Assembly: GCF_001690195.1 (NCBI RefSeq)
Contig: NZ_LZGM01000090.1
Span: 1 to 64,000, forward strand
Direction: 5' to 3'
Length of the DNA stretch: 64,000 nucleotides
Origin: Gilliamella sp. wkB108
GTDB lineage: Bacteria; Pseudomonadota; Gammaproteobacteria; Enterobacterales; Orbaceae
Part shown: positions 34 to 56,946 of the stretch, in pieces
Layout of the letters: the number at the start of each line of letters is the position of its first letter
How positions within the stretch are numbered: the first letter of the stretch is position 1
Notes under the pieces: model-generated
Database searches by the model: none
Told to the model about the DNA's origin: nothing
What the model saw: only the letters and a program-made list of their open reading frames with translations
Program-made: the position numbers and the translations under genes

Positions 34-71
34 TATACTTAAACGTATAGCTTACCTGAAACATCTTTACA
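34..71 (-). repeat. 38-bp dispersed element, copy A
   Basis: One of five copies of a 38-bp sequence that align without gaps in this window. The others are at 17154, 38565, 39451 and 56909. Here it runs from TATACTTAAACGTAT to ACCTGAAACAT then CTTTACA on the plus strand. Positions 1-6 (TATACT) and 21-29 (ACCTGAAAC) are the same in all copies. It lies in the spacer upstream of the lectin-like gene. Function unknown. I call copies reading TATACT first on the plus strand minus-oriented, only to keep orientation consistent. Confidence 0.85.
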
Positions 72-591
72 AAAATTGCAAGTCATTATCTTTTCATTCA
101 CTAAATAGTGCTAAGTAGATTAATTTGCATCAATATCAGACAGAAATCCAAATTACCTGTAGGTAGATTGATGCCCAATGGATTGTAAAAGGTTAATTAG
201 CAACGAAGGCAATCATAAAAAAATCACTATTTTTATCGAGATATTGGGATTGACTACGGCGATTCACATCAACTTTATTTTACTCAAATATAAACATAAT
301 ATTTTTTGATAGTATGTCATTTAAAACATCTATATCTCGTAACGTTTCATTAAAAACAGATATGATCTATAAGGTTATTTTTAAGCTATGTTATTGTTTT
401 TTTTTATTAAATAAAAAGAAGTTGTTAACTTAAATTTTATATTAATTATTTACATTTCTTAACAAATCTCATTTACATACAATTGCATAATATTAATATC
501 ATACTTATACTGTTTTGCGTCTCTCTTGGCATTGTAATAACAAATTATTCAATAATAATATAACCACATATTTATACAAAAGGCTGATAGT
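72..591. other. AT-rich spacer without a gene
   Basis: No reading frame or RNA gene is evident in these 520 bases. It holds the promoter region of the next gene. A purine-rich AAAGG about 9 bases before the ATG at 592 is a plausible ribosome-binding site. Confidence 0.5.
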
Positions 592-2361
592 ATGTTAAAA
601 AGGATATGTTTAGAAGCCAGGCAACCGAGCAGTATTAAAGTGCCGGTAATTTTAGGAAGACAATTTTCAGTATCAATCTTTCCCTATTCATCAATACGTT
701 CTTATGTAGCAATAAATTCTCATTCCAAAATAAAAGTATCAAAATTTATCAGGCCATTATTAAAACCGCTATTACTCAGTGTAAGTTTTCTATTAGCTAT
801 AAATAGCGCTTATGGATTAAATGCTCGTACAGCTAAAACTATTAATGGCGAACCTCCCTATTTAACCTTTGATGGTGGGGTAACTAAAGTCAACGATGCC
901 AGTACATTGTTAAGTATCACGTTATCAGACGGCAATGAAATTAAAGCTACTGACGATACGTCATCTTTAGATAAACCAATTGAGTTACCAAATGGGGAAG
1001 AGACTTTTTCTACAGTAAAAACGGTAGTGCCGTTTCCAGCTAATAATAATCGTTACCCCTCCTATTATATGAATAATATAATTGGTCCTAATAATTATTG
1101 GGGAGACGCGGATGGTGATACTTATGACAATATTACAGGGGCTGTCTCCGTAAGATGGAAAGATAAGGATGATAGAGATATAACTATGGATGTAGGAGAT
1201 AACCCAAATGGGGCTATAAATTTTTGCGATGCACCGTACAAGTTAACCGTAATGGTGGGGCCGGGTCAATTTAGTACCAAATATGGAGATCCTAAAATTA
1301 GTGGATATAACGTTAGTTCTCATACTTATTACATCGTTCCTAATAAAGCAGAAGCAGGGCGAGTATGTTTCGCGGAACCAAATTTGAGCATGCAATATGA
1401 TTGGGATAATAGAAATTTTGTAACAGGATTAGGTTTTAGGGTTACCAAACCTGCCAATAGTGGTAATTATTGGGGAGCAAATTCGGTAAATAATAATAAT
1501 TTCCCTACTACCGGAGCTCACGGATTAAACTTTTATTTGATCACTAATGGCATCACTCCTGCTGAGGTCGTCGCTATTAATGGCAGTCAAGTAACTGCAT
1601 CAGGCAGTAATGTTCATTTAACCCTAACTGCAACAGAGACCCCTCAGTGGAGACGTGGTGACGGTCCAACCTCTGCTGGAGGACCAATAATTAGTACAGG
1701 ATGGTATGGTCCATTTCCACCTGTACCAGCAGTAAAGGTACAGTTATCTGGTCCTAGGTATTCCTCTGGCGATAAAAGCTTTAGTCCTGTGACATTTAAG
1801 CTTTATGCTGATAGCAGTAGGAAAAAGTTATTGTATGAATTTCGCTTAATGCGTTGGTATATAGCACAGCCCGGAAAATCTTATCCTGGTTCAAAAACAG
1901 GGAATGGTCTAGATGGTCAAGCTCAGGCGAGATCTTATTGTGAGAGTTTTGGTTATCGATTACCAAATGTTAATGATTACACCAATGCGAACCAACCTAA
2001 TTTTGGTTGGCGAGAAGGTTTTATTGACGGTAGTGAATCCGCTGGAGATAGCTATAAGCGTAAATTAAGTTACCTTGAGACTCCTACAAAGTGGCAAGGT
2101 GGAATATTAAATGAATGGGGATGTTTAACAAATACTGAATTTTCAGCTGATGTTGCCGTGCTTGGAACCCGATATAGGTGCAGTGGTTATCCGGACAGTG
2201 ATTGGGATAGATATCGTTCATATTGGACCAACAGTGTAGCCACGAATCCAAGTAGTATCCAAAATGGTTATGCTTTGTTAGTTAATTCATCTTATGGCAA
2301 TATTAATTACTATTCTCAAGATAACTATTTTGATTATCGGGCGGTATGTGTCAAACCTTAA
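592..2361 (+). CDS. secreted lectin-like/adhesin-like protein, unknown function
   Basis: A 589-residue protein I cannot assign to a named family. The N-terminus has about 52 polar residues before a basic and hydrophobic stretch (about residues 53-76, ending NSAYG), which looks like an extended signal peptide for export. The middle is rich in Asn, Gly, Tyr and Thr, as in surface proteins. The last 130 residues carry a pattern like the DUF1566/Lcl C-terminal lectin-like fold: a Cys-containing helix, a YRLPNV motif, a YWTNS motif and a final RAVCVKP. Similar C-terminal modules end invasin-type adhesins, so host attachment is a reasonable guess. The ATG has a nearby AAAGG. It stands alone and is followed by a terminator hairpin. 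Confidence is good that the gene is real and low for its role. Confidence 0.75.
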   Translation: MLKRICLEARQPSSIKVPVILGRQFSVSIFPYSSIRSYVAINSHSKIKVSKFIRPLLKPLLLSVSFLLAINSAYGLNARTAKTINGEPPYLTFDGGVTKVNDASTLLSITLSDGNEIKATDDTSSLDKPIELPNGEETFSTVKTVVPFPANNNRYPSYYMNNIIGPNNYWGDADGDTYDNITGAVSVRWKDKDDRDITMDVGDNPNGAINFCDAPYKLTVMVGPGQFSTKYGDPKISGYNVSSHTYYIVPNKAEAGRVCFAEPNLSMQYDWDNRNFVTGLGFRVTKPANSGNYWGANSVNNNNFPTTGAHGLNFYLITNGITPAEVVAINGSQVTASGSNVHLTLTATETPQWRRGDGPTSAGGPIISTGWYGPFPPVPAVKVQLSGPRYSSGDKSFSPVTFKLYADSSRKKLLYEFRLMRWYIAQPGKSYPGSKTGNGLDGQAQARSYCESFGYRLPNVNDYTNANQPNFGWREGFIDGSESAGDSYKRKLSYLETPTKWQGGILNEWGCLTNTEFSADVAVLGTRYRCSGYPDSDWDRYRSYWTNSVATNPSSIQNGYALLVNSSYGNINYYSQDNYFDYRAVCVKP

Positions 2362-2404
2362 AATAATGAAGAAATTGACAGCTAGAGTGAAGTAAAATTT
2401 TTGT

Positions 2405-2433
2405 GCTAGCTTATTTTAAGTTAGCCGGTTTTT
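2405..2433 (+). terminator. rho-independent terminator of the lectin-like gene
   Basis: The arms GCTAGCTTA (2405-2413) and TAAGTTAGC (2417-2425) pair over 9 bp with one G-U pair and a 3-base loop. They are followed by CGG and a run of five T. It sits 43 bases after the stop codon. Confidence 0.7.
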
Positions 2434-2621
2434 CATAGTAAATAGCCCATTTTTGTTAATCAGATAAAGATATGTTGGCAAAAAGGGGCTTTTTGATAAT
2501 AGTAAAAATAAAAAATGCCTCAAAATACAGTGTTTGAGAGTACGTCAGGTTCCGATCATTTTTTATGTAAAAAAGCGATTAGCACTAAAAATAATTAAAA
2601 GCATGCTACACAGGAGCGATT

Positions 2622-3977
2622 TTATAGCAATCTTTTTATTATTCTATCTACTTTAATTCGGCTTAATCGTTTAATTAGTTTGTGAACATGCTTCGGATAA
2701 AATTGGCTAGCCTGAATTTGTTGAAAATGGGTTACCAAGGTAGTTTTTTCACGAATAGTATTAAGCTCTTTTGTGAATTGATTTTGTAACTCTTGTTTAG
2801 GGTCGTGAACCAAAATACCATTTTCAAGATCTAATCGCCAAGCTCTAGGATTAAGGTTATTACCGGTAATTAGTACCCATTGATCATCAATCCAGATACC
2901 TTTCAAATGATAAGTTTGATCTGCGTCTTTCCATAATCGAATAATAAGTTGCTCTTTATCGACAAATGATTGTAATCGTTCAATAAATTTTCTTAAGTTG
3001 ATTTCATATAAATAGGGTAATCCACCAGAGATGTTAAACGGTTGGTCTTCGGGAATAAAGAAATCGTTAGCTTCTTTATCGCCAATTATGATCTCAACCT
3101 GACGACCTTTACGAAGTAATCGAATAATATCGCGCACTAAGATATTAGGTAGATTAAAATAAGGTGTACAAAATACTATTTTTTGTTGGGTTGAGTTAAT
3201 TAAATGATGAATAATTTTATTCAGCGCATTATTACGTCCAAGACCAGCAATTGGTGCTACCGATAATGTATCGTTATCCGCATTACTGGTATATTGATAA
3301 TTAACATCTTGAAGATGTTGGCGCAATGATCTAATTTCATTTTTAATCTGTTTTCGACTTTTGTGCTTTTCAACATCGAGTCTTTGTAATCCGTCCAATG
3401 GTAAAAAGTTGTTATCCACATATGATACCATGCTATCAGCTAAAACTTTATTTTTAATAAAGTGATAACGATCGTAACGGTATTTATCAAGTTTGTGTAA
3501 ATAAACATTATTAATACTTGCACCACTGTAAATGACGGTGTTATCAATGATATAGCCTTTAAGATGTAATACGCCAAGCACTTCACGGCGGTTAATAGGT
3601 ACACCATAAATAGGAATATCTATATCAGGGTGCTGTTGTTTTAATTGGTAATAATAACGGGCATTAGTTTGCGTTTTATCTTCACCAATACGACCACGTT
3701 GCGCTCTGTGCCAGTCCATAAATATTTTAATGTCTATATTCGGCCACTGTTGTTTAATTTGATAAAGTGCATCAAGTATTTCTTTTCCGGCTTCATCTTT
3801 TTCTAAATAGAGCGCAACAATATAGATTCGTTGTTGTGCTTTATAAATATGATCTAAAAGCGCCAAACGATAAGCTTCAGGTTCATATACAATATGATAT
3901 TGATCTGCGTTTTGCTGAATTTTTCCTAATTCATCAAGATGCTTTTGGTGATTATATTTTATAAATGGTATTCGCAT
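2622..3977 (-). CDS. pssA: CDP-diacylglycerol--serine O-phosphatidyltransferase
   Basis: Makes phosphatidylserine from CDP-diacylglycerol and serine, the first step to phosphatidylethanolamine, at the inner face of the membrane. At 451 residues it has exactly the length I recall for E. coli PssA and matches it end to end. Both phospholipase-D-type catalytic motifs are present: HLKGYIID with His138, and HLKGIWID with His357, the second followed by TGNNLNPRAWRLDLEN. The C-terminus is rich in Arg, Lys and Ile (RLSRIKVDRIIKRLL), consistent with peripheral membrane binding. Transcribed alone. The ydiK-like gene upstream is on the same strand about 150 bases away. Confidence 0.95.
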   Translation of the reverse strand: MRIPFIKYNHQKHLDELGKIQQNADQYHIVYEPEAYRLALLDHIYKAQQRIYIVALYLEKDEAGKEILDALYQIKQQWPNIDIKIFMDWHRAQRGRIGEDKTQTNARYYYQLKQQHPDIDIPIYGVPINRREVLGVLHLKGYIIDNTVIYSGASINNVYLHKLDKYRYDRYHFIKNKVLADSMVSYVDNNFLPLDGLQRLDVEKHKSRKQIKNEIRSLRQHLQDVNYQYTSNADNDTLSVAPIAGLGRNNALNKIIHHLINSTQQKIVFCTPYFNLPNILVRDIIRLLRKGRQVEIIIGDKEANDFFIPEDQPFNISGGLPYLYEINLRKFIERLQSFVDKEQLIIRLWKDADQTYHLKGIWIDDQWVLITGNNLNPRAWRLDLENGILVHDPKQELQNQFTKELNTIREKTTLVTHFQQIQASQFYPKHVHKLIKRLSRIKVDRIIKRLL

Positions 3978-4125
3978 GATTCATTTATCATCGTAACTAA
4001 TTTAGTTGGTAGAATAACATAATTTACACTAGAAAATAACACTCCCTTTATAACATTGGCGTTATTTTAATTAACTTAATAAAATATATATATTAAAAAT
4101 GGCTTTATTTGTGATCAAAGCTATA

Positions 4126-5178
4126 TCAAGATTGTTCATTGATCCAAGTTTGAATTAACTTATAAGCCAGAGCGAGTACCACAGGTCCGATAAATAATCC
4201 CATAATACCAAAACCAAGAAGCCCACCAATCACACCAAATAAAATAAGTAAGAATGGTAAGTCAGCCCCTTTTTTAATTAAAAAGGCTCGCATTACACTA
4301 TCAAGAGTGGTTAAAACGACAGCCACAACAATAAGTATTATACCCGACGTGGTGTGACCGTCCCAGAATTGCCAAATAATGCAACCTAACATGACTATGA
4401 CCGGTCCAATTTGTGCAACACAACAGATAAATAAAATCAGTGTTAAAATTCCAGGGAATGGCATATTGGTCAATATAAAACTTAATCCACCAATTAATGC
4501 CAATGTAATGGCGGTCACAACAACACCCAATGCTACGGCACGGATTGATTGTCCGGCTAAAGTTACGGTTGTTGCTCCATATTGTTTAGATAGACGGTTA
4601 GCAAATAGGTAAACATATTTAGTAATACTTTCACCTTTTAAAAATAGTAGCAGGCTGAAAATAATCATGACCCCACCATGGAAGATAAATAGACCGATGT
4701 TAGTTGCTTGTTCTAACAACCATCCTATCACTGTGCCAATATAAGGTTGAATGCTGGTGATTAAATCAGATCCGTCGGTTTTAATCAGTTCTAACCATTT
4801 TTGATGTAACTCAGTACCAAACATAGGTATGTTATTTAACCAGTCAAAAGTTGGTAGTTCTTTAGATTGAAGGGTTTTTGCCCATTCAATAAGGTAATGA
4901 CCATTTTGAGCAACACTGCTAATAATTAGAAAAAAAGGAATGACACACACCAATGATAGTATTAACGTCATTACTAGCAATGATAACCATCGTTTGTTAA
5001 ACAGTCGTTGTTGTATATTTATCATTAATGGCCAAGTGGTTATCACTACCATTACAGCCCAGAAAAAGCCAAATAAAAAAGCTTCTACAACACGGTAAGT
5101 AAGAATTATAAGTAAACCAATCAGTAAAAGATTTAAAATTAATTTTAATAAATCGTAAGTATTTTTTTCGGCTGGCAT
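4126..5178 (-). CDS. ydiK: AI-2E family membrane permease, YdiK-like
   Basis: A 350-residue membrane protein of the AI-2E (PerM/YdiK/TqsA) family, with a hydrophobic helical pair at the N-terminus (about 14-60), one helix near 68-90, a polar periplasmic segment (about 90-150) and four or five helices to the end. The C-terminal helix with FGIMGLFIGPVVLALAYKL is the family signature region. Members are proposed exporters or transporters of small molecules; the YdiK substrate is unknown, so the symbol is by resemblance. It starts at an ATG that faces away from the ecotin gene, leaving about 100 bases that must hold both promoters. Confidence 0.8.
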   Translation of the reverse strand: MPAEKNTYDLLKLILNLLLIGLLIILTYRVVEAFLFGFFWAVMVVITTWPLMINIQQRLFNKRWLSLLVMTLILSLVCVIPFFLIISSVAQNGHYLIEWAKTLQSKELPTFDWLNNIPMFGTELHQKWLELIKTDGSDLITSIQPYIGTVIGWLLEQATNIGLFIFHGGVMIIFSLLLFLKGESITKYVYLFANRLSKQYGATTVTLAGQSIRAVALGVVVTAITLALIGGLSFILTNMPFPGILTLILFICCVAQIGPVIVMLGCIIWQFWDGHTTSGIILIVVAVVLTTLDSVMRAFLIKKGADLPFLLILFGVIGGLLGFGIMGLFIGPVVLALAYKLIQTWINEQS

Positions 5179-5282
5179 TATTTGACCGTATTAATTAAAT
5201 TCAATAGTGGTATTATACCCACTCTCATTTAAAAATCATATAACGTAATGTTAATGATAACGAAGTTTAACGGAGGCATAAA

Positions 5283-5777
5283 ATGAAAAAATTACTGTTA
5301 TTAACGTTGATGAGCGTTGTATTAAGCGCTTGTGCGAAAAGCCCAAATGTACCTGTCACTAATCAAAAGTTAAGTGAAATAGCACCTTATCCTGAGGCAA
5401 AAGTGGGTTATACTCGTTATACAATTCATCTTCCCGCCTTATCAGATGAGAGTAATGCCCGTGTCGAAGTATTAATTGGTAAAAATATGAATGTGGATTG
5501 TAACGCGCATAGTTTATCTGGCAAAGTGGTGCAAAAAGAGTTAAAAGGTTGGGGATATTCATATTATGTAGTGGATAAAGTTGGTGATGGTGTGTCAACT
5601 TTAATGGCTTGTCCTGACAATGCAACACAAAAGCAATTTGTTACCATTCATCACAATTTAGGTTTGTTAGATTATAACAGTCGATTACCGATTGTCTTTT
5701 ATGTACCAAGTGAGTTAACTATTCAATATCGTATTTGGCAACCTCATACCAAAACCTCACAAGCCAACGCCGAATAA
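5283..5777 (+). CDS. eco: ecotin, serine protease inhibitor with a lipoprotein signal
   Basis: Inhibits trypsin-fold serine proteases. The body (about residues 30-155) matches ecotin, including APYPEAKVGYTR, the disulfide cysteines in VDCN (Cys73) and MACPD (Cys110), GWGYSYYVVDKV and LPIVFYVP. The reactive loop reads STLMAC, so the P1 residue by alignment to E. coli ecotin (STMMAC, P1 the first Met) is Leu107. The signal peptide ends in LSAC with Cys17 as lipidation site and Ala at +2, so the protein is probably anchored in the outer membrane; E. coli ecotin is soluble and periplasmic. A GGAGG sits 6 bases before the ATG. Single gene followed by a hairpin. Confidence 0.92.
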   Translation: MKKLLLLTLMSVVLSACAKSPNVPVTNQKLSEIAPYPEAKVGYTRYTIHLPALSDESNARVEVLIGKNMNVDCNAHSLSGKVVQKELKGWGYSYYVVDKVGDGVSTLMACPDNATQKQFVTIHHNLGLLDYNSRLPIVFYVPSELTIQYRIWQPHTKTSQANAE

Positions 5778-5811
5778 AATTATCAAAATTAATCGTCAAT
5801 AGATCGTTAAA

Positions 5812-5850
5812 TCAGGGTTGAGAGGCTAAAATATGACCACTCAATCCTGA
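5812..5850 (+). terminator. hairpin after the ecotin gene
   Basis: TCAGGGTTGAG (5812-5822) pairs with CTCAATCCTGA (5840-5850) over 11 bp with one G-U pair. The following sequence is only mildly T-rich, so termination is likely but not certain. Confidence 0.45.
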
Positions 5851-6098
5851 ATCTGATGATATTTGATTATTTAAGTGGACATCTTTTAAAAAAAAGGTAT
5901 TTTATCCCTCGTAATGCAAGGTTAGCTCTACTTGTTCATTAATTATAATCAGTTAATGACTTGTGATTGCCTGATTACCTCGGTTTCGCCAGGTTATTTT
6001 TTTAAAAGTAACGGGTAAAATTTGGGGGTCCGTTGTGTCATTGCAATGGGCTTGTGTCTAACATGTAATATCCCTATACAAGAGGAGAAGTGGTGAGC
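5851..6098. other. spacer upstream of potF
   Basis: No gene seen. It should contain the pot promoter. I found no convincing operator. A GAGGAG at 6083-6088 precedes the chosen potF start by 10 bases. Confidence 0.4.
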
Positions 6099-7208
6099 AT
6101 GTTTACTCAACGTAAAACAATTCTTTCAATTCTTGCTGGTGTTTCACTAGCTTTATCACAATCGGCCATAGCTAAAGATCGTGTTGTACATTTTTATAAT
6201 TGGGCAGGACAAATAGGTTCAAAAACAATTGTTGATTTTGAAAATTCAACGGGTATTAAGCTGGTGTATGATGTTTATGATTCAAATGAAGCATTAGAAG
6301 GTAAACTAATGGCAGGCCATTCAGGTTTTGATGTTGTGTCACCTTCGGATAGTTTCTTAGCCAGACAGATTAAATCAGATATTTATCTACCATTAGATAA
6401 AAGCAAATTACCAAATTGGAAAAATCTTGATCCTAATTTAATGAAATTAATGGCAACTCACGATCCTGATAATAAGTACGCAATTCCGTATGTTTGGATG
6501 ACAACAGGTATTGGTTACAATATTGATAAAGTTAAAGAACGTTTAGGAGCGGATGCACCAGTTGATAGTTGGGATTTAGTATTCAAACCAGAAAACATGG
6601 AAAAACTGAAAGATTGTGGTGTGGCATTTCTTGATGCGCCAACCGAAATTTTTGCTAGTGCTTTACAATATTTAGGTAAAGATCCAAATAGTACTGATGC
6701 TAAAGACTATACCGGAGCAGCTTACGACTTATTAGCAAAAGTAAGACCAAATATCCGTTATTTCCACTCGTCACAATATATTACCGATCTTGCTAATGGT
6801 GATATTTGTGTGATTTTAGGTTGGTCAGGTGATATTCTGCAATCTCGTGATAGGGCAAATGAAGCTAAAAATGGTGTACATATTGGCTATCAAATTCCTA
6901 AAGAAGGCGCACTTGTATTCTTTGATACCTTTGCCATTCCAAAAGATTCAGCTAATGTTGAAGAAGCGCACGAGTTCTTAAATTTTGTTATGAAACCAGA
7001 GATTGCCGCACAAGTTACCAATGATGTTAACTTTGCTAGTGCAAATAAAGTTGCTAATGATGAATTTGTCAAACCAGAGGTGAAAAACGATCCGGCGGTT
7101 TATCCAAAACCAGAAGTGATGGAAAAGTTATTCACTTTAAAAGTTAAAGAGCCTAAACTTGAACGAGTTATTACTCGGACTTGGACAAAACTTAAAACTG
7201 GTAAGTAA
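6099..7208 (+). CDS. potF: putrescine-binding periplasmic protein
   Basis: Substrate-binding component of the PotFGHI putrescine importer. The 369 residues begin with a signal peptide (FTQRKTILSILAGVSLALSQSAIA, cut before KDRVVHFYNW) and align throughout with PotF, including the conserved HFYNWAGQIG start, DVVSPSDSFLARQI, VWMTTGIGYN and GWSGDILQSRDRA. The family binds putrescine through acidic and aromatic residues in the cleft. GTG codons at 6090 and 6093 would extend it by up to three residues, but GAGGAG (6083-6088) is spaced correctly only for the ATG at 6099. A terminator-like hairpin follows before potG, so potF can be made in excess of the membrane parts. Confidence 0.93.
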   Translation: MFTQRKTILSILAGVSLALSQSAIAKDRVVHFYNWAGQIGSKTIVDFENSTGIKLVYDVYDSNEALEGKLMAGHSGFDVVSPSDSFLARQIKSDIYLPLDKSKLPNWKNLDPNLMKLMATHDPDNKYAIPYVWMTTGIGYNIDKVKERLGADAPVDSWDLVFKPENMEKLKDCGVAFLDAPTEIFASALQYLGKDPNSTDAKDYTGAAYDLLAKVRPNIRYFHSSQYITDLANGDICVILGWSGDILQSRDRANEAKNGVHIGYQIPKEGALVFFDTFAIPKDSANVEEAHEFLNFVMKPEIAAQVTNDVNFASANKVANDEFVKPEVKNDPAVYPKPEVMEKLFTLKVKEPKLERVITRTWTKLKTGK

Positions 7209-7250
7209 GTGATTTATTAAATACAGAGTTATTTAATAAAGTATTCAAGA

Positions 7251-7288
7251 CGGAGAGATTGAATTGATCTTTCCGTTTCGTTTTTTTT
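7251..7288 (+). terminator. internal terminator/attenuator between potF and potG
   Basis: CGGAGAGAT (7251-7259) pairs with ATCTTTCCG (7267-7275) with one G-U pair and a 7-base loop, followed by TTTCG and eight T. Partial termination here would give more PotF than PotGHI, as in many ABC operons. Confidence 0.7.
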
Positions 7289-7313
7289 GGCTTGTTGTTA
7301 TGAGGAAAAAAGA

Positions 7314-8450
7314 GTGAACGATAAAACAACAAATCAGGTACAGCCTAAAAAAAAGATGATAACTCCACTGTTGGAGATCAAAAATTTAACCAAAGTTTTT
7401 AATGATGATTATTATGCTGTTGATGATGTGAATCTCACTATTTATACAGGCGAGATTTTTGCTTTATTAGGGGCATCTGGTAGTGGTAAATCAACACTAT
7501 TGCGTATGTTAGCGGGGTTCGAACAACCGACTTCAGGACAGATTATTTTAGATGGCAAGGATTTATCTCAAGTACCTCCTTATAATCGACCTATCAATAT
7601 GATGTTTCAATCGTATGCTCTATTTCCTCACATGACGGTTGAGCAAAATATTGCATTTGGTTTAAAACAAGACAAATTAAATAGTAATGAAATCAAACAA
7701 CGTGTAGAAGAAATGTTAGCTCTGGTTCATATGGAGCAGTTCGGTAAACGTAAACCACACCAATTATCCGGTGGACAGAGGCAACGAGTTGCGTTAGCCA
7801 GAAGTTTAGCTAAACGACCAAAATTGTTGTTACTTGATGAACCAATGGGGGCTTTAGATAAACAACTTCGAGATCGTATGCAACTTGAAGTTGTTAGCAT
7901 TTTAGAGCAGGTGGGTGCGACTTGTGTTATGGTTACTCATGATCAGGAAGAAGCCATGACAATGGCAGGACGAATCGCAATTATGAACAAAGGGCAATTT
8001 GTGCAAATTGGAGAGCCTGAAGAAATTTATGAGCATCCAAATTGTCGTTATAGTGCAGAATTTATTGGTTCAGTGAACATTTTTGACGGTATTTTACAAG
8101 AGACTTTAGAAGATGGTTTGATTATTGCTTGTCCAATGATTAAACATCCATTAAAAGTTGATTATGATTCTCCAGCAGTTGAAGGTGTACCAATCAAAGT
8201 TGCATTGCGACCAGAAAAAATCAAACTTTGTGAACAAATACCAGAAAACGCTTATAACGTTGCAGTAGGTGAGGTTGTGGAAATTGCTTATTTGGGTGAT
8301 CTCTCTATTTATCACGTCAAATTATCAAGTGGACAAATTATCATTGCGCAATTACAAAATGAACATCGTTATCGTAAAGGTATGCCAACTTGGGGAGACA
8401 CAGTAAACCTTAGTTGGGAAGTTGATAGTTGTGTTGTTCTTACCGAATAA
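7314..8450 (+). CDS. potG: putrescine ABC transporter ATP-binding protein
   Basis: Cytoplasmic ATPase of PotFGHI. It has the Walker A motif GASGSGKST (Ser where I recall Cys in E. coli PotG), the Q-loop MMFQSYALF, the ABC signature LSGGQRQRV, Walker B LLLLDEP and the switch His in VTHDQEEAM. A C-terminal TOBE-type domain (about 280-378) starts near ALRPEKIKL. The frame is open from a TTG at 7287, but that start lies in the terminator T-run. The GTG at 7314 has GAGG 8 bases upstream and gives 378 residues, the E. coli length. It ends 18 bases before potH in the same operon. Confidence 0.93.
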   Translation: MNDKTTNQVQPKKKMITPLLEIKNLTKVFNDDYYAVDDVNLTIYTGEIFALLGASGSGKSTLLRMLAGFEQPTSGQIILDGKDLSQVPPYNRPINMMFQSYALFPHMTVEQNIAFGLKQDKLNSNEIKQRVEEMLALVHMEQFGKRKPHQLSGGQRQRVALARSLAKRPKLLLLDEPMGALDKQLRDRMQLEVVSILEQVGATCVMVTHDQEEAMTMAGRIAIMNKGQFVQIGEPEEIYEHPNCRYSAEFIGSVNIFDGILQETLEDGLIIACPMIKHPLKVDYDSPAVEGVPIKVALRPEKIKLCEQIPENAYNVAVGEVVEIAYLGDLSIYHVKLSSGQIIIAQLQNEHRYRKGMPTWGDTVNLSWEVDSCVVLTE

Positions 8451-8468
8451 ATAAAAGAGGATATAGTG

Positions 8469-10649: not shown

Positions 10650-10666
10650 AATTGTACTTCATATTG

Positions 10667-17153: not shown

Positions 17154-17191
17154 TGTAAAAATGTTTCAGGTCAACTATACGTTTTAGTATA
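17154..17191 (+). repeat. 38-bp dispersed element, copy B
   Basis: Gapless copy, here reading ATGTTTCAGGT then TATACGTTTTAGTATA on the plus strand. It shares the extended TGTAAAAAT end with copy A. It lies about 178 bases before trmA. Confidence 0.88.
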
Positions 17192-38564: not shown

Positions 38565-38602
38565 TGTCAAAAAGTTTCAGGTTAACTATATGTTTGAGTA
38601 TA
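38565..38602 (+). repeat. 38-bp dispersed element, copy C
   Basis: Gapless copy reading TGTCAAAAAGTTTCAGGTTA then TATATGTTTGAGTATA on the plus strand, about 92 bases before queH. With copy D it forms an inverted pair around queH. Confidence 0.85.
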
Positions 38603-39450: not shown

Positions 39451-39488
39451 TATACTAAAACGTATGCTTAACCTGAAACATTTGGTCG
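39451..39488 (-). repeat. 38-bp dispersed element, copy D
   Basis: Gapless copy reading TATACTAAAACGTAT then TTAACCTGAAACATTTGG on the plus strand, 40 bases after the queH stop and inverted relative to copy C. Its right end ACATTTGG also matches the extra half of copy E. Confidence 0.88.
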
Positions 39489-44601: not shown

Positions 44602-44614
44602 CTAGGAGAAAAAT

Positions 44615-46366: not shown

Positions 46367-46369
46367 TTA

Positions 46370-48177: not shown

Positions 48178-48239
48178 ATAAACTGCTAGTTGCGTATTTA
48201 TAGCAAATTTTAAATTGAATTAGCGATAAGGGGAAAAAG

Positions 48240-49178
48240 ATGTCTAGTTACCAACATGATACATTATGGCTTTTTATGGGCATCGGGCTTTTTCTTGTTG
48301 TCGCTTCAATTATTGGTTGGATATTGAAAAGTCGTGTTAAAGCGCCTAATAGCGTAATTGATAATTTAAACACTCGTATTAATGCATGGTGGGTGATGGT
48401 GGTGATTATAGGTGTTGCTTTTTTACTTGGTAAATTGGCGGTGATTTTCCTATTTTTTGTCGCTTCAGGTCTGGCTTTACGCGAATTTCTTATTTTAACT
48501 CCAATTACACGTTATGATTACTATGCACTGTTATTTGCTTTTTATGTGGCACTTCCGGTGCAATACATCTTAGTGGCTGTATCATGGTATGGTCTATTCA
48601 GCATTTTTATTCCTGTTTACGTTTTTTTGTTACTCGCTATATTGGCTTCAATTACCGGATCAACCAATAACTTTTTAGAGCGAACCGCAGAGGTTCAATG
48701 GGGATTGATGATCACCGTATATAGTATTTCTTGCGTACCGGCATTGTTGGCATTAGAAATCAACAATTATCAAGATCGGAATTTATTACTTATCGCTTTT
48801 TTAATTTTGGTGGTACAACTTTCTGATGTATTACAATATGTATTTGGTAAGTTATTTGGTAAACATAAAATTGCCCCCAATTTATCACCTTCAAAAACGA
48901 TTGAAGGTTTTTTCGGAGGTGTTTTATCAGCAAGTTTTATCGGCGCCTGTCTTTTCTGGATAACGCCATTTGGCTTTATTCAAGCTGGCTTAATCTCTTT
49001 GCTCATCACCTTATTTGGTTTTATGGGAGGATTAGTAATGTCAGCTATAAAGCGAGATCGAGGAGTAAAAGATTGGGGTAATTTAATAGGTGGTCATGGT
49101 GGTATCTTAGATCGTCTAGATTCCGTCTGCTTTGCTGCGCCAATTTTTTTCCACGTTGTACGCTATTTTTGGGTGTAA
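48240..49178 (+). CDS. ynbB: CDP-diacylglycerol synthase (CdsA-like), YnbB-like
   Basis: Phosphatidate cytidylyltransferase family protein of 312 residues with about eight helices. The signature region is present: QYVFGKLFGKHKIAPNLSPS followed by KTIEGFFGG, and VKDWGNLIGGHGGILDRLDS with the metal-binding Asp residues. It would make CDP-diacylglycerol from phosphatidic acid and CTP, feeding the YnbA-type transferase. It resembles E. coli YnbB, a CdsA paralogue. AAGGGG precedes the ATG. Last gene of the lipid operon, 62 bases after the small membrane gene. Confidence 0.88.
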   Translation: MSSYQHDTLWLFMGIGLFLVVASIIGWILKSRVKAPNSVIDNLNTRINAWWVMVVIIGVAFLLGKLAVIFLFFVASGLALREFLILTPITRYDYYALLFAFYVALPVQYILVAVSWYGLFSIFIPVYVFLLLAILASITGSTNNFLERTAEVQWGLMITVYSISCVPALLALEINNYQDRNLLLIAFLILVVQLSDVLQYVFGKLFGKHKIAPNLSPSKTIEGFFGGVLSASFIGACLFWITPFGFIQAGLISLLITLFGFMGGLVMSAIKRDRGVKDWGNLIGGHGGILDRLDSVCFAAPIFFHVVRYFWV

Positions 49179-49328
49179 CGATTATCGAATATTCAAATAA
49201 TTATAGATAAAATAGACCAGTGCTGTTGTTAGTATAAAAAATTGCATGTAAAAAAGAGCAAAATGATTAAATTTATGATATAAATACACAAATTTAATTA
49301 ACTTAACAATATAAATAAGGACCTTATT

Positions 49329-49592
49329 ATGTTAAAAGAGCAAATGGTAGTTAAAAATTCAACTGGACTTCACGCACGCCCTGTAACAACGCTTGTTAAA
49401 TTGGCCGGTCGCTACAAATCAACAATTGAACTTGTTTATAATGAAAAAACCATTAAATTAAAAAGTATGATGGGTCTATTAGGTGCTGGCGTCAAAGGTG
49501 GCTCAACTGTTGAAATTATTTGTGATGGTGAAGACGAACAAGCCGCTATGGATGAAATTCGTGAACTTTTTGCTTCTGGCTTTGGCGAATAA
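49329..49592 (+). CDS. HPr family phosphocarrier protein, Firmicutes-like, orphan
   Basis: An 87-residue HPr. Active-site His15 lies in STGLHARP and Ser46 in IKLKSMMGLL, followed by GAGVKGGSTVEI. The Ser46 segment is far closer to B. subtilis HPr (NLKSIMGV) than to E. coli PtsH (SAKSLFKL), and the C-terminus ending GFGE recalls the Gram-positive protein. No ptsI, crr or other PTS gene is near, so it may be a second HPr in addition to a standard ptsH elsewhere. AAGGACC lies before the ATG. A strong hairpin follows. Confidence 0.9.
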   Translation: MLKEQMVVKNSTGLHARPVTTLVKLAGRYKSTIELVYNEKTIKLKSMMGLLGAGVKGGSTVEIICDGEDEQAAMDEIRELFASGFGE

Positions 49593-49629
49593 TAGCTGAA
49601 AAAGTAAACCGTAAGTTTTGTAAGATATT

Positions 49630-49657
49630 TATTCCGTCGATATTGATCGACGGAATA
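49630..49657. terminator. hairpin between HPr gene and APC permease
   Basis: TATTCCGTCGAT (49630-49641) and ATCGACGGAATA (49646-49657) form a perfect 12-bp stem with a 4-base loop between convergent genes. The flanks are not T-rich, but placement suggests a bidirectional terminator. Confidence 0.6.
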
Positions 49658-49709
49658 TTAAAAAAGACAGTACTAAGTAGTATAAAATAGAGATAATGAT
49701 CTGATTAAT

Positions 49710-51071
49710 TCAATCTTTGATAATAGAATTTAGTTCATTATGACCAATTGAAGGTAACATACATTTGAAACCTTTAGTCAGATAGACTAAATAAATAAAA
49801 CCAATTGCCAACCAAATTAAACCGACAATCATCGCCGTAGCATCAAGACTCGTCCATAACCATAATGAAAGTAGTACACCGATTAAAGGTAATAACCCAT
49901 ATTTAAAAATGGCAGTGCCTGTGCTACCTTTGACTTTACCTAGATAACTCTTAATGACACATAAGTTAACAAAAGTGAAAGCAACTAATGCACCAAAACT
50001 AATCATTGAGACAACAAGACTAAGTTCTAATACTAATGATAACAATGAAAAACATGCAACAAAAATAATAGATAGGTAAGGTGTTCTAAAACGATGATGA
50101 ATTTTATAAAAAATTTGTTTAGGTAACACTCCCTCTCGTCCCATTGCATAAAATATTCTTGATACACTAGTTTGAGCCGTCATCGCTGAAGCAAATACAC
50201 CAGTTAAATAGGCTGCTTGAAAGAAGTTATACATAAAGTTGCCACTTAGGTGACTGATTTCGCCAACACGGCGAACAACATATAAACTTGCAATGTCTTC
50301 TTTACCAATCAGGTCACTCCAAATCGGGTAAGCTAAGTGCGCACTATAAGAGACAATTAAAAAGATACCGCCAGCTATGGCTACCGTCCACAGTATTGCT
50401 CTAGGTAATGATTTTTGTGCATCATTTGATTCTTCAGCTAACGTAGCTATGGCATCAAAGCCTAGAAAAGCAAGGCAAAGCACCGCAGCGCCCGAAAGTA
50501 AACCACTAAAATCATGTGGACTGATTTGAAGTGGTTTTAGCATTGTTTCTGGCGAATGATCGACATTGGTGAAAGCTAAAAAAACAAATAATACAATAAA
50601 AATTAATTGAACAATGATTAATGTAAAATTGACAGAGTTAATTAATTTGATACCTATAAAGTTTAAAAGACTTACACTGATTAACGCTCCTAATACAAAA
50701 ACATAAGCTGGTATAAAAGGAAATGTATCATGCAGGTAAATGCCTAAAACCAAATAATTTAATATTGGTAAAAATAGGTAATCAAGAATTTGCGCCCAAC
50801 CCACTAAAAAACCAATTTTCCCGCCAAACGTATATTGCACGTATGAATAGGCAGAGCCAGCAATAGGTAATTTATTTGCCATACGGCAATAACTCAATGC
50901 TGTGAAAAAGATCATTGCAAGGGTGATAATATAGGCTATAGGTAAGTGTCCATTGCTTAAAACTGTAACTTGCCCATAAGTGGTAAAGATCCCTAAAGGA
51001 ACCATGTAAGCTAAACCAAATGCAATCAATGCAGGTGTGGTTAAAACTCGTTTCATTTTTATTGTGGACAT
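49710..51071 (-). CDS. APC family amino acid/putrescine permease, PuuP/YgjI-like
   Basis: A 453-residue twelve-helix permease. TTPALIAFGLAYMVPLGIFTTYG in helix 1, AGSAYSYVQYTFGGKIGFLVGW, LGFDAIATLAEESNDAQKSLPRAI in helix 6 and ASAMTAQTSVSRIFYAMGREGVLP match the PuuP-like part of the family, so the substrate may be putrescine or an amino acid. The frame runs to 51215, but the ATG at 51071 has AGAGGAG 7 bases upstream and begins at the family N-terminus (MSTIKMKRVLTTPAL). Single gene, convergent with the HPr gene. Confidence 0.88.
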   Translation of the reverse strand: MSTIKMKRVLTTPALIAFGLAYMVPLGIFTTYGQVTVLSNGHLPIAYIITLAMIFFTALSYCRMANKLPIAGSAYSYVQYTFGGKIGFLVGWAQILDYLFLPILNYLVLGIYLHDTFPFIPAYVFVLGALISVSLLNFIGIKLINSVNFTLIIVQLIFIVLFVFLAFTNVDHSPETMLKPLQISPHDFSGLLSGAAVLCLAFLGFDAIATLAEESNDAQKSLPRAILWTVAIAGGIFLIVSYSAHLAYPIWSDLIGKEDIASLYVVRRVGEISHLSGNFMYNFFQAAYLTGVFASAMTAQTSVSRIFYAMGREGVLPKQIFYKIHHRFRTPYLSIIFVACFSLLSLVLELSLVVSMISFGALVAFTFVNLCVIKSYLGKVKGSTGTAIFKYGLLPLIGVLLSLWLWTSLDATAMIVGLIWLAIGFIYLVYLTKGFKCMLPSIGHNELNSIIKD

Positions 51072-51481
51072 GACTTTGCTCCTCTGTCCAAAAAAACAAT
51101 AAAAAACTACTAAGTATAGTTTTGCCTTTTTACCCGCTAAAAGCGGCAGGGAATTTTCCCACATTATTGTAAATATGCAAGCCAATTTTTTGTTAATTAA
51201 TGGAAAAGTGAACAATTTGCTAAATTTGGGATTATGTATGAACTAAATTTAGGCATGTCAAAATAAAAAAAGGGTCTCGGGAAATAAATGACTGTATGTT
51301 TATTCGTATTTATCTGTGTCGAAATAGCGTGTTAGTTAGCTAGTTTTTATCAATTAGAAGAATATATTTATCGCATCAATCCCTGTTATATCTATTAAAT
51401 TAACAAACAATGTCATTAATCAAAATCTTTTATCATTGATTTTATGATAGCAAAAGTGAAATTTATTTAACTGGTGTAACA
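51072..51481. other. spacer upstream of the APC permease
   Basis: AT-rich, no gene seen; it should hold the permease promoter. Confidence 0.35.
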
Positions 51482-51655
51482 ATGTTTGTTGCAGATGTGA
51501 TGGCTCATGAGCAAGAGATAGAGATGAAAGTTCTACCTAATAATATTGTATTGTTTCATGCTAAAAGCAGTGTGGTTAAAACGCTTTTCATTGCAATACC
51601 TAAAAATAGTACAGGTGTCGTTTGGAACAATAATAAAGTGAAATTAAGTGTTTAA
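51482..51655 (+). pseudogene. 57-codon frame, possibly part of a decayed gene
   Basis: ATG to TAA gives MFVADVMAHEQEIEMKVLPN followed by 37 more residues (ending KVKLSV). There is no signal peptide or good ribosome-binding site. Just after it a second short stretch in another frame (about 51675-51776, containing NQDHLIIIANLASNLVMDDF) also looks protein-like, as if a single gene had been split by frameshifts. I cannot name a family. The remaining bases to 51886 hold nothing recognisable. Confidence 0.3.
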
Positions 51656-51886
51656 ATTAATTCTTCTGAACAGCTAACCAAGACCATTTAATCATAATTG
51701 CTAATTTAGCTTCTAATTTAGTTATGGATGATTTTGTCGACAATTTACTTAACAGTGACAAATACTATTGTTGATAAAATTCGAGGTTTGTAGGAATAAT
51801 AAAGAGATTGTGGCTATTTTATATTTTAGCAAAAAGAATGTAGTTGACCACTATGATGCCAATGAAGTGGAATAACGTTCGATATT

Positions 51887-51921
51887 ATAATCAACACCGA
51901 TATTTTATCGGTGTTGATTAT
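51887..51921. terminator. 15-bp perfect hairpin downstream of the amidohydrolase gene
   Basis: ATAATCAACACCGAT (51887-51901) and ATCGGTGTTGATTAT (51907-51921) pair perfectly around ATTTT, 36 bases past the amidohydrolase stop. Weak T-run on the minus side, so terminator is the best but not the only reading. Confidence 0.55.
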
Positions 51922-51956
51922 GTACTGTAAAAATGATAGACGTTAACGAGTCTGTA

Positions 51957-53639
51957 TTATTGTTGGTTATAAACTGTTTTACCGCCAACAATAGTCGTTA
52001 AGACTTTTACTTTACTTATTTCAGTTGCAGGAATAGTAAACGGATTACGATCTAAAATAATTAGATCGGCAAATTTACCTTTTTCAATCGAGCCGATATA
52101 CTTATCTTGTTTTAACACATATGCGGCATTAATTGTTGCACAACGTAACACTTCGTTAACCGTTAAATTGCGATCGCTATTTAAACGAGGATAATCGGGA
52201 CTAATTTGCCTTGTCATGGCAATTTGAAAATCATACCACTCATTTAAAGGATCAATTGGCCAATCACTACCGAATGCACATTTAACTCCGGCATCGATAT
52301 ATTGACCGTGTGCCTCTAAACCATTGTAACGTTCTGAACCAAACAGTGTTTGATACTGCTCAATCATTGCTGAACTGCATCCTGCCCATTGAAATGAAAA
52401 TACTACCGAAGTATTTAATTGTTTATATCTGGCAAACTGATGCATAGCACTTAATTCATTGTGGGCAGTACTAGGGCGAATATCGGCATCAGGTAATACT
52501 TGACGCATTTTTTCAATGGCATTAAGCACAACTTCAATCGCTCCTTCACCTACCGTATGCATATGTGGATGAAAGCCTGCTTTTGCTGATTCGAGAATTA
52601 ATGCATCTAACATTTCAGTTGAATAGTAAAGATCACCATAGCGATCTTTTTCAGTCGCTAAATGATAGGGCTTAAGTAGACGAGCGGTCATTAGTGGTGC
52701 TTGCATAACACCGTCAACAAACAGTTTAGTATGGGAAATTTTGATTCCGGGTTTCGGTTGCCAGTTTTTATCATCATAACGTTTGGCAAACTGTTTAACT
52801 TTATTCACTACATTAGGAATATCCTCAATGGTAGAAATATCACCCGGCGGTAATTCACGTGCGCCAAATAACCGAATGGATAATTGGTCATGTTGTTGAA
52901 GATTTAAATATGCATCAGCTTGTAACTCGGTAATTCGTGCATCCATTACTGCCGTGACGCCTTGTTTATTTAGTTCTGTTTGCGACAATTTGGCAATATT
53001 AACCGCTTGTTCAGCAGTTATTTTAGAAATACTATCAAATGCACGCATTGCTGGTGCATCTTCTAAAATACCATTTAATTCTCCGTCGTGAGTGCGACCT
53101 ATTTTTCCATCTGATGGCTCTGGTGTATTTCTGTCAAATCCAAATTTTTCTAATGCGATACTATTTGCAACGAGTGTGTGACAATCGTTGGAAAAGAGAA
53201 TAACAGGGCGTTTAGTGTTAAGTTTATCAAGATCAAAACGAGTAATATCTGTGCCAATGGGCAAAACTTCTTGCCTCAACCAACCGCGAACTTGCAACCA
53301 ACTGTCACTATTTTTTGTAATATCTTCGTCTAAATATTTTTGAATAATTGCTAAAGTAGCATCTACGGTTAAACTCTGATAATTTAAATTACAAGAGGAT
53401 AATTGCGTTCCACCCCAAAAAGTATGAAGATGAGTATCAATGATCCCAGGCATCATGGTTTTACCCTGTAGGTCATAAATGGTCGTATGATGATCAACGA
53501 AATTACTGTTATTTATTTCTTTGGTACTACCTATTGCAGTAATATACCCATTTTCAATCGCGACTGCTTCACACACACTATCATGTTGATCAGCGGTATA
53601 AATATAGCCGTTTATATAAATAACATCAGCTTTAGCCAT
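51957..53639 (-). CDS. amidohydrolase family 3 protein, YtcJ-like
   Basis: A 560-residue metal-dependent hydrolase. The N-terminal and C-terminal strands form the small domain (ADVIYINGYIYTAD; KGKFADLIILDRNPF). The barrel shows metal ligands in PGIIDTHLHTFWGG (His72, His74 region), the Lys or carboxylated-Lys region, HMHTVGEGA, STAHNEL and the catalytic Asp in FGSDWPIDPLNEW. The group includes YtcJ and N-substituted formamide deformylase types; the substrate is not predictable. AAAGGAATC precedes the ATG. Single gene. Confidence 0.85.
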   Translation of the reverse strand: MAKADVIYINGYIYTADQHDSVCEAVAIENGYITAIGSTKEINNSNFVDHHTTIYDLQGKTMMPGIIDTHLHTFWGGTQLSSCNLNYQSLTVDATLAIIQKYLDEDITKNSDSWLQVRGWLRQEVLPIGTDITRFDLDKLNTKRPVILFSNDCHTLVANSIALEKFGFDRNTPEPSDGKIGRTHDGELNGILEDAPAMRAFDSISKITAEQAVNIAKLSQTELNKQGVTAVMDARITELQADAYLNLQQHDQLSIRLFGARELPPGDISTIEDIPNVVNKVKQFAKRYDDKNWQPKPGIKISHTKLFVDGVMQAPLMTARLLKPYHLATEKDRYGDLYYSTEMLDALILESAKAGFHPHMHTVGEGAIEVVLNAIEKMRQVLPDADIRPSTAHNELSAMHQFARYKQLNTSVVFSFQWAGCSSAMIEQYQTLFGSERYNGLEAHGQYIDAGVKCAFGSDWPIDPLNEWYDFQIAMTRQISPDYPRLNSDRNLTVNEVLRCATINAAYVLKQDKYIGSIEKGKFADLIILDRNPFTIPATEISKVKVLTTIVGGKTVYNQQ

Positions 53640-53766
53640 TATTGGTGATTCCTTTAAATAGAGATCAAAATCAAAGATGAAACGATAGCAGATTTATAAA
53701 AAATTTGTCAAATGCAATAATTTTCTTTATTGTGTGAGGGGATTATGCTACAAATAATCTATCTTA

Positions 53767-53779
53767 GTTACAGCGTCAC
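53767..53779. promoter_or_regulatory. matS-like MatP site at the matP start
   Basis: GTTACAGCGTCAC matches the E. coli matS consensus GTGACRNYGTCAC at all but the third position. It lies 11 bases before the matP ATG, where it would cover the translation start region or promoter. Possible autoregulation, unproven. Confidence 0.45.
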
Positions 53780-53790
53780 ATGGTAAACAG

Positions 53791-54255
53791 ATGAAATATC
53801 AACAACTAGAAAACCTTGAATGTGGTTGGAAGTGGCACTATCTAGTAAAAAGGCATTCAGAAGGTGAGCCGATTACTCGCTATATAGAAAAAAGCGCAGC
53901 TCAACATGCCGTTAATGAATTATTGCTACTAGAACGTAATCCAACCGGTGTGGTTGACTGGATTAAACAGCATTTAAACCCCGATTTAGATAATCGCATG
54001 AAGCAAACAATTCGGGCAAAACGAAAACGACATTTTAATGCAGAGCAACAGCATACCAGAAAAAAATCGATTGATTTGGAATTTCTAGTTTGGCAACGAT
54101 TAGCGAATCTAGCCAAAAGAAGGCGTTCTACGTTGTCAGAAACGATTACGCAACTAATTGAAGATGCTGAGCAGAAAGAGCAATATGCAACCAAAGTATC
54201 GACAATTAAAGATGATTTACTATCACTACTTGATGTAAAACAAGATAGTAAATAA
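53791..54255 (+). CDS. matP: macrodomain Ter protein MatP
   Basis: DNA-binding protein that organises the chromosome terminus by binding matS sites and linking to ZapB at the division septum. The 154 residues match E. coli Mat[18 protein letters not shown], the four-helix N-terminal domain, [18 protein letters not shown], and the ribbon-helix-helix [20 protein letters not shown] with [12 protein letters not shown] and a coiled C-terminus. The ribosome-binding site is weak and a matS-like site sits just upstream. It lies 29 bases before topA and may share a transcript with it. Confidence 0.95.
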
Positions 54256-54284
54256 TACAAACAACAGAATAAATAGGTTTAATT

Positions 54285-56885
54285 ATGGGAAAATCCCTTG
54301 TTATTGTAGAATCACCAGCCAAAGCAAAAACAATTAATAAATATCTTGGCAAAGATTTCGTGGTTAAATCAAGTGTTGGTCATATTCGTGATCTTCCGGT
54401 GAGTGGAAGTAGCCAGCGCGCTGAGAAAACCAGCAAAGATAAAACAGAAAAGAAAGTAAAACGTTCCGAAAAACAGATCTTAGTTGACAGAATGAGTGTC
54501 GATCCTTACAACGGTTGGCAAGCTCATTATCAGATTTTACCCGGCAAAGAGCGTGTGGTGTCTGAGTTAAAAAAACTGGCGAAAGATGCTGATATGATCT
54601 ACCTCGCAACCGACTTGGATAGAGAAGGAGAGGCCATTGCTTGGCATCTTAAAGATGTGATTGGTGGAGAGGATAGTAAATATCGTCGCGTGGTTTTTAA
54701 TGAAATTACTAAAACCGCTATTAAAAATGCGTTTAATAAACCTTCAATGTTAGATATGGATCGCGTTAATGCTCAGCAAGCGCGACGATTTATGGATCGG
54801 GTTGTCGGCTTTATGTTATCGCCTTTATTATGGAAAAAAGTTGCTCGAGGGCTATCTGCTGGCCGAGTTCAATCCGTTGCCGTGCGCTTAGTTGTTGAAC
54901 GTGAACGCGAAATTCATGCATTTATTCCGCAAGAGTATTGGGATCTTTATGCGGATTTGACTACTTCTAACAAAGAGTTATTAACGCTACAAGTTACTCA
55001 CTATAAAGACGAAGCCTTTGAACCAAAAGATAAACTTGCTATTGATATTGCTTTAACTGAATTAAATAATAGCCAATATCAGGTTACAAATATAGAACAA
55101 AAACCGACTAAAAGTAATCCAACCGCACCATTTATTACTTCTACATTGCAACAAGCAGCAAGTACCCGTTTAGGTTTTGGTGTCAAAAAGACGATGATGT
55201 TAGCACAACGGCTCTATGAAGCAGGTTACATTACCTATATGCGTACCGACTCGACTAATTTAAGTCAAGATGCGCTGACCATGGTTCGCAACTATATTGG
55301 TAAAAATTTTGGTGATAAATATCTACCAAGTTCAGCAAATGTCTATACCAGTAAGAAAAATTCTCAAGAAGCGCATGAAGCCATTCGTCCTTCAGATGTA
55401 ATGATCCTTGCTGAAAATCTCAGTGATGTTGAAGCTGATGCAGGGAAATTATATCAGTTAATTTGGCGACAATTTGTGGCTTGTCAAATGACCAGTGCCG
55501 AATATAACTCAACCACGATAACTGTTAAAGCGGGTGATTTTATCTTAAAGGCTAAAGGTCGTACCTTACGCTTTGATGGTTGGACAAAAGTTCAACCACA
55601 ACTTAGCAAAAATAGTGAAGATAAAATGTTACCAGAGGTAGCGGTTAACGATAAATTAGCATTACAAAGTTTAAATCCAAATCAGCACTTTACTAAACCA
55701 CCTGCTCGTTATAATGAAGCATCGTTAGTTAAAGAACTTGAAAAACGCGAAATTGGACGTCCTTCAACTTATGCAACAATTATCTCCACTATCCAAGATC
55801 GTGGTTATGTTCGTTTGGATAATCGTCGCTTTTATGCAGAAAAAATCGGGGAGATTGTAACAGACAGACTAAGTGAAAACTTTAATGATCTTATGAGTTA
55901 TGATTTTACTGCTCGTATGGAACAAGCGCTTGATGAAATAGCCAATAAAAAACAGGAATGGCGTGAAGTATTAGACCAATTCTTTAGTGATTTTAGTGAA
56001 CACCTTGATATTGCCGAACAAGATCCGGATAAAGGTGGAATGCAGCTGAATCCATTAGTCTTAACGCCAGAAATTAAATGTCCAAATTGTGGACGTGAAA
56101 TGGGAATTAAAACCGCTGGAACAGGGGTTTTTCTTGCTTGTTCTGGTTATTCACTGCCACCCAAACAGCGTTGTAAACAGACAATAAACTTAATTCCTGA
56201 GCATGAGACTTTAAATATTTTAGAAGAAGCAGATACGGCCGAAACCGATGCATTGCGAGCGCGCAAACGTTGTCCAAAATGCCATACAGCAATGGATAGT
56301 TACTTACTTGATAATGAGCGTAAATTGCATATTTGTGGTAATAATCCAATTTGCGATGGTTTTATTGTTGAAAAAGGTAACTTCAAAGTAAAAAGCTATG
56401 AAGGTCCAGTTATTGAGTGCGAAAAATGTGGATCAGAGATGCATTTAAAATCAGGACGTTTTGGTTTATATATGGGCTGTACAAATCCCGATTGTAAAAA
56501 TACTCGCAAAATCTTGAAAAATGGAGATGTCGCACCTCCAAAAGAGGATCCAGTTGATTTGCCAGAACTTAAATGCACCAAATCAGATGCGCATTTCGTA
56601 TTACGTGACGGTGCTTCAGGCATCTTTTTAGCGGCTCATAATTTCCCAAAATCACGGGAAACCAGAGCGCCATTGATTGAAGAATTACAACGTTTTAAAG
56701 ATCGCTTGCCAGAAAAGTTCTTATATTTAACTCAAGCGCCAAGTAAAGATCCTGAAGGTAATCAGGCCATAGTGCGTTTTAGTCGTAAAAGTAAACAACA
56801 ATATGTTACATCCGAAGTCAATGGAAAATCGACAGGTTGGGTGATGCAGTATGTGGACGGAAAATGGATTAATGGTAAAAAATAG
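54285..56885 (+). CDS. topA: DNA topoisomerase I
   Basis: Relaxes negative supercoils by transient single-strand cleavage. The 866 residues (E. coli 865) start with the TOPRIM domain ([27 protein letters not shown] near 108-120). The catalytic Tyr is in [14 protein letters not shown] (Tyr318). The core ends near 590, followed by three four-Cys zinc ribbons ([42 protein letters not shown]) and a C-terminal DNA-binding tail. Six bases past the stop is an expanded copy of the 38-bp element. The topA-cysB order is as in enterobacteria. Confidence 0.97.
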
Positions 56886-56890
56886 GTAAT

Positions 56891-56946
56891 AAAAAAACCT
56901 GAAACATTTGGCAAGATGTTTCAGGTTAAGCCTACGTTTTAGTATA
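56891..56946 (+). repeat. 38-bp dispersed element, copy E, expanded into a hairpin
   Basis: The 38-bp unit is at 56909-56946 (TTCAGGTTAAGCC then TACGTTTTAGTATA). An inverted extra half precedes it, so AACCTGAAACAT (56896-56907) and ATGTTTCAGGTT (56916-56927) form a perfect 12-bp stem with an 8-base loop right after topA. On the minus strand the stem is followed by seven T, so it would terminate transcription coming from the right; it may also aid topA ending. Confidence 0.85.

Follow-up and report, generated by a model that had tools for sequence, protein, structure and literature searches.

The window, meaning the whole stretch of 64,000 nucleotides of Gilliamella sp. wkB108 DNA that was analysed, contains five copies of a short intergenic element. 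One lies beside the remnant of an insertion sequence (IS) and another has an inverted repeat of its own. The copies, called cores below, and the associated features are:

1–25, plus strand: right-end remnant of an IS30-family IS (TTCGCATTTAGATGTTGAATTCAGC), 5' of the core at 34 and at the usual fixed distance from it
34–71, plus strand: core copy, 521 bp 5' of the ORF at 592–2361, which has no Pfam or NCBIfam family match
17154–17191, minus strand: core copy between the divergent srmB-like (SrmB) helicase gene and trmA
38565–38602, minus strand: core copy between a divergent MATE transporter gene and queH
39451–39488, plus strand: core copy 3' of queH, between queH and the gene for a CoA-activase-like protein
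56898–56925, plus strand: inverted repeat (arms 56898–56907 and 56916–56925), special to the topA-cysB copy
56909–56946, minus strand: core copy between topA and cysB

The initial annotation had described five segments of 38 bp, and all were found at the coordinates it gave. Once oriented (34 and 39451 plus, the other three minus), they align without a gap, TATACT, AAAC and ACCTGAAAC are invariant in all five, and none overlaps a listed ORF of at least 80 amino acids. The neighbours trmA, queH (both sides) and topA were identified again by family models, while the gene called lectin-like has no Pfam or NCBIfam match, which leaves that name unconfirmed. The five segments are copies of one element with a consensus of ~40 bp, TTTATACTNAAACRTATAGYTAACCTGAAACWTCTTTACAA; 38 bp is a valid alignable unit, but the conserved unit is slightly longer, about 40–41 bp. 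The element is bipartite: one part reads TTTATACTNAAAC, the other GAAAC-W-TYTT-N-ACAA, and the linker that joins them has a length fixed per species. Two CTNAAAC words within it lie 18 bp apart in direct orientation.

A sequence-only search model built from 13 copies found at least 150 matches in the wkB108 genome itself (G000). A weight matrix (49.6 bits over 39 columns) found 155 copies in 407 kb of this genome, made up of the stretches fetched around the model matches plus the window, and across these copies conservation spans about position -1 to 39 and falls off on either side. In G002, 101 copies were found. The abundance is far above what would be expected of AT-rich words, with 128 occurrences of TATACTNAAAC in G000 compared to 14 of its reversed control. 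The intergenic preference proposed from the five copies also holds for the larger set: with ORFs of at least 90 amino acids standing in for genes, 145 of the 155 copies are wholly outside ORFs, 8 lie over an ORF edge and 2 are inside an ORF, while 4,088 of 21,200 random 40-mers from the same stretches are wholly outside. Stop codons are favoured over start codons as close neighbours: of the 147 copies that have a neighbour on either side, 48 have a stop and 14 a start at no more than 50 bp.

Orientation relative to the replication origin, a check suggested in the initial annotation, showed no strand bias by replichore in the complete genome G001. A role as replication-direction sites was rejected, as the best replichore split (11 of 85 loci) was exceeded in 95% of random runs.

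The sequence-only model had a match in 33 of 35 genomes of the genus, with from 0 to at least 109 matches per genome; 25 genomes from other genera had none. A second pattern, less tied to any one dialect, matched 26 of the 35 and none of 84 genomes outside the genus, nine of them of the same family; its reversed form matched none. The nearly empty species form two clades (G006, G018, G025, G026 and G030; G013 and G029), each with support of 100 and lying among site-rich species, in a tree of 28 genomes built from the topA and cysB ends, a single locus. G005, which is outside this tree, has 59 model matches and is 84–86% identical to the core-poor G006 and G030. The earlier statement that the element is known from no named family agrees with literature searches on Gilliamella and Orbaceae repeats, which at the level of listings gave no description of it, and the 64-kb window has no Rfam match at gathering score. 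An exact core is also present in a phage-like IMG/VR contig (L352, 2053–2083), the only such contig found in the entire viral collection.

Sites are shared in place between species. Within 200 kb of G002, G012 has an orthologous core at 8 of 8 loci, one weak genic ninth match being left out. Five of the seven G020 cores in 200 kb have a partner core in G023; of the other two, one has no clean orthologous flanks there and one is gone. At five G000 loci, most of G003, G016, G020 and G023 also have a core at the matching position. In the window, site 38565, 5' of queH, is common to G002, G007, G015, G020 and G023, and the core is absent in G003. Site 39451 has a core in G003, G002, G012, G007, G015 and G010, a degenerate one in G021, and none in 12 of the 20 genomes whose interval could be compared, including G020 and G023. 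Sites thus come and go over longer times. At the five G000 loci above, nine intervals of the core-poor G006 and G013 were compared: eight are no more than 15 bp off the core-bearing length and one is 168 bp longer, although as an empty-site test this comparison is between diverged relatives.

The TATACTAAAAC end of the topA-cysB copy can be made out in nearly all of the genus genomes that were compared, including those with almost no other copies. The arm sequence of its inverted repeat differs between species, and the pairing appears to be kept. Its role as the progenitor of the family found no support, as in G001 and G005 it is unlike both the model and the dialect of the other copies.

At orthologous sites, the conserved core positions diverge less than their surroundings: 15 of 660 positions (2.3%) differ, versus 175 of 1646 and 194 of 1666 (10.6 and 11.6%) in the two flanks, in 22 of 24 orthologue rows. 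The two rows left out were one without a core and one with too little flank similarity. The G002 loci were picked for strong cores, a choice that hides up to half of the neutral divergence, so that a fair neutral expectation for these best-scoring cores is about 5–6%; the deficit remains about twofold. The comparison favours purifying selection at orthologous sites, with this ascertainment bias. One site departs from the pattern. At G020:C3:11059, 17 of 40 core positions differ from G023 with no change in length and with flanks about 94% alike, a change faster than simple decay would give and a point against the reading preferred below. L339 (G015:C4) has a coreless allele of the L299 locus, 74% identical to it; the remaining contigs of G015, a draft genome, resemble G002 at ~96%, and L339 is possibly contamination.

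The spelling of the core differs between species, with a characteristic dialect in G000 (CCTGAAACWTCTTTACAA), G001 (TTTTCTGAAACTTCTTGACAAG) and G002 (AACCTGAAACTTTTTNACA). In G012, a relative of G002, ATCT precedes GAAA in 24 of 33 sites among the matches listed. G020 and G023 form a sister pair. In 200 kb of each genome, 14 of 16 G023 cores read TCAGGAAAC (CAGG), while 6 of 7 G020 cores read CCTGAAAC and none of the seven has CAGG. At 7 of the 9 loci where both species have a core, CCTG in G020 faces CAGG in G023, the exceptions being topA-cysB and G020:C3:84883. The length of the linker also varies: among the matches listed, a 33-nt form with a linker 1 bp shorter accounts for 32 of 33 sites in G033 and 30 of 33 in G021, and the 34-nt form with the normal linker for all 33 in G012 and all 32 in G020. 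In the species compared, spelling changes in concert across whole genomes while the places mostly stay.

At the queH 5' site, G013 and G029, with one model match each per genome, have the worn cores TTGTCAAAAAGTTTTGGTTATTACCTTTGTTTCAGTATAAA and TTATCAAAAAGTTTTAGTTATTACCTTCGTTTCAGTATAAA, and G014 and G017 have a similarly decayed relic. A relic test with the weight matrix, which is a weak test, gave P<0.05 for 6 of 20 orthologous intervals, three of these not in core-poor species.

Some cores are found in tandem. In the complete genome G001, 149 matches form 85 loci, 24 of which have at least two copies. All 24 of these multi-copy clusters are head-to-tail, with a period typical of the locus and ranging from 104 to about 1,000 bp. 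G000 has 14 clusters within 600 bp, 13 of them in one orientation. Tandem Repeats Finder gave no array with a period of at least 100 bp in 146 kb of G001 control stretches, where arrays of shorter period occur, and no arrays of any kind in the 64-kb window. The spacers of the arrays are local DNA, for example the 3' end of a gene. Array size differs between species at one locus, with three core copies in G012 (C1, ~2,279 kb) versus one in G002 (C1, ~2,427 kb), where the flanks of the single core suggest a contraction between cores. In 13 G001 arrays, divergence is 5.5% at conserved core positions versus 11.5% in the spacers; in the G000 arrays there is no difference (5.4% in cores, 6.2% in spacers).

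L203 (G001:C1:1705500-1712000) and L208 contain CRISPR-like arrays of period 60 inside core-delimited units, accompanied by leader-like DNA and a GC-rich repeat; at L203 the unit of ~950 bp is itself in tandem, and the spacers differ in each copy. The repeat of these arrays resembles that of type I-F. On G023:C1 (L398, 7500–19500, and L400, 3000–13500) there are arrays of long, related genes for secreted-looking proteins, and 10 of the 16 G023 cores of the 200 kb sit among such arrayed genes.

The IS remnant in the window belongs to a wider association. Among the copies listed, 37 of the 155 in G000 are preceded by GTTGAATTCAGC (at most 2 mismatches) at a distance of up to 70 bp, usually at -20 or -21. 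At several loci this sequence forms one end of an element of the IS30 family (NCBIfam NF033563, 218 bits). One IS30-family left end adjoins a variant core in reverse orientation. Excerpts of the literature describe IS30 as targeting hot-spot sequences or sites beside its own IRs (PMC9333248) and other ISs as targeting REPs (PMC1525189). The fixed distance between IS and core in Gilliamella is similar to these cases, though here cores are abundant in genomes without such a transposase at E<=1e-20. Only 6 of 35 genus genomes have the transposase at that threshold and most site-rich genomes have none, so the IS was rejected as the source of the family; it uses the site but did not make it. A second, diverged core type (AAATGAAACGGTATAGACTCCTGAATATTTTTTACAA) occurs in G000 (L127, L100 and a stretch of C93), also beside IS30-like ends.

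The element was compared with known classes of short repeat. REPs are described, in an excerpt of PMC3116915, as short, dispersed, extragenic and able to cluster. The Gilliamella cores share these properties with REPs, REPINs and BIMEs, but lack a palindromic hairpin and, in G000, a RAYT, and their arrays are head-to-tail rather than inverted doublets. DNA folds of four dialect consensuses have energies of -0.5 to -1.4 kcal/mol, no better than shuffled sequences. The RAYT domain (Y1_Tnp, PF01797) was not found in G000 and was found in 1 of 35 genus genomes (G009, L172 = G009:C28), in a search whose control was positive in 5 of 14 cases. A REPIN/RAYT system was rejected on these grounds. MITEs are likewise short, intergenic and present in many copies; they differ from the cores, which have no terminal inverted repeats, show no coherent excess of target-site duplication over 107 single copies, and occupy places common to several species. 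A MITE with target-site duplication was rejected as well, as was an RNA element, there being no Rfam match in the window, no fold and no orientation to genes. Two of the options raised in the initial annotation, the end of a mobile element and a REP-like family, are disfavoured by the absence of hairpin, Y1 transposase and target-site duplication and by the shared places; the third, that a global DNA protein binds the site, is favoured.

The reading that we prefer, with a probability of about 0.55, is that a putative co-evolving DNA-binding factor recognises the element as a double-stranded DNA site, and that the element is not mobile. The shared places, the constraint, the concerted spelling and the decay in some clades fit reading in trans better. 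The spread, in an ancestor, of a non-autonomous mobile repeat of MITE or REPIN type that is now mostly static would explain why copy number varies from 0 to at least 109 within one genus and why the copies are dispersed, intergenic and short; the IS30-family IS abutting a quarter or so of the listed G000 copies and the copy in one viral contig also point that way. We consider it unlikely. Beside the missing terminal repeats, target duplication, hairpin and (in G000) Y1 transposase, no clean empty sites were seen among diverged relatives, and transposition does not produce dialect changes in concert at sites that have not moved. That the element is simply an operator or promoter sequence for a single regulator is very unlikely: the topA-cysB and queH 5' copies do adjoin conserved promoter-like sequence, but the copies are not oriented to genes and are mostly 3' of them, and inspection by eye showed no -35/-10 pair at a constant spacing.

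Two further explanations were considered. DNA uptake sequences (DUS) are short. Those of the Neisseriaceae, in an excerpt of PMC3630211, are genome-wide, number in the thousands, and have a spelling constant within species and different between species. If a transformation receptor preferred core DNA, exchange would spread and update the sites and its bias would favour arrays; dialects per species, loss along with a presumed loss of the receptor, either orientation and array growth would all follow, and the DUS dialects of that excerpt are the closest dynamic analogue. Gilliamella also has genome-wide sites with species dialects at conserved places. Its sites, however, number ~100–150 per genome, are ~40 bp long, bipartite and partly in tandem arrays, as opposed to DUS, which are short and number in the thousands, and core copies are found at ~30 kb spacings; a signal of this type is improbable. 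Templated rewriting, in which DNA or RNA, coming from an array or made by a reverse transcriptase, serves as a template for overwriting sites where they stand and so keeps copies alike, would account for the concerted base changes and the 1-bp linker difference at unmoved sites, and for the length-neutral 17/40 difference at G020:C3:11059 with its flanks intact. Selection by a reader explains most of the same pattern, and we regard rewriting from a template as quite improbable. Taken more broadly – ~100 intergenic 40-bp sites that update themselves in concert and in place, by biased exchange or templated conversion, with the arrays as by-product or template store – the idea is still improbable; if true, rewriting in place would include a 1-bp linker change.

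Under the preferred reading, ~90–120 intergenic loci in each genome would be read, whichever way the site faces, by a putative DNA-binding protein specific to the lineage or by a machine that includes such a protein. The sites would be kept in place by selection on their being read, as their shared positions and low divergence suggest. As the specificity of the reader drifted, the sites would follow in concert, giving rise to the species dialects, and where the reader was lost the sites would decay, which would account for the relics seen at one locus in two species and for the near-absence of cores from the rest of their genomes. Recombination between directly repeated cores could multiply or contract the segment between them, giving the head-to-tail arrays observed.

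The use of such sites would most likely be chromosome-wide marking, for nucleoid organisation or biased DNA exchange, rather than regulation of adjacent promoters, because the sites occur downstream of genes and face either way. Even spacing along the chromosome, the expectation for a chromosome organiser, was only hinted at and was inconsistent (P 0.03, 0.08 and 0.5), which counts against that use. The matS, parS and SlmA sites are dispersed non-coding protein sites at scores of loci, as the Gilliamella cores are, but those sites are shorter and stable between species, while the spelling in Gilliamella changes within one genus. The dynamics are best read, by analogy, as resembling those of DNA-uptake-sequence dialects.

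If the preferred reading is true, Gilliamella would offer a natural experiment in the co-evolution of a DNA reader with many sites, whose places are stable while their spelling turns over, and would caution annotators that such intergenic repeats need not be mobile. With site-rich and site-poor species in one genus, the reader should emerge when their gene contents are compared, and removal of a single site could show the purpose of the mark.
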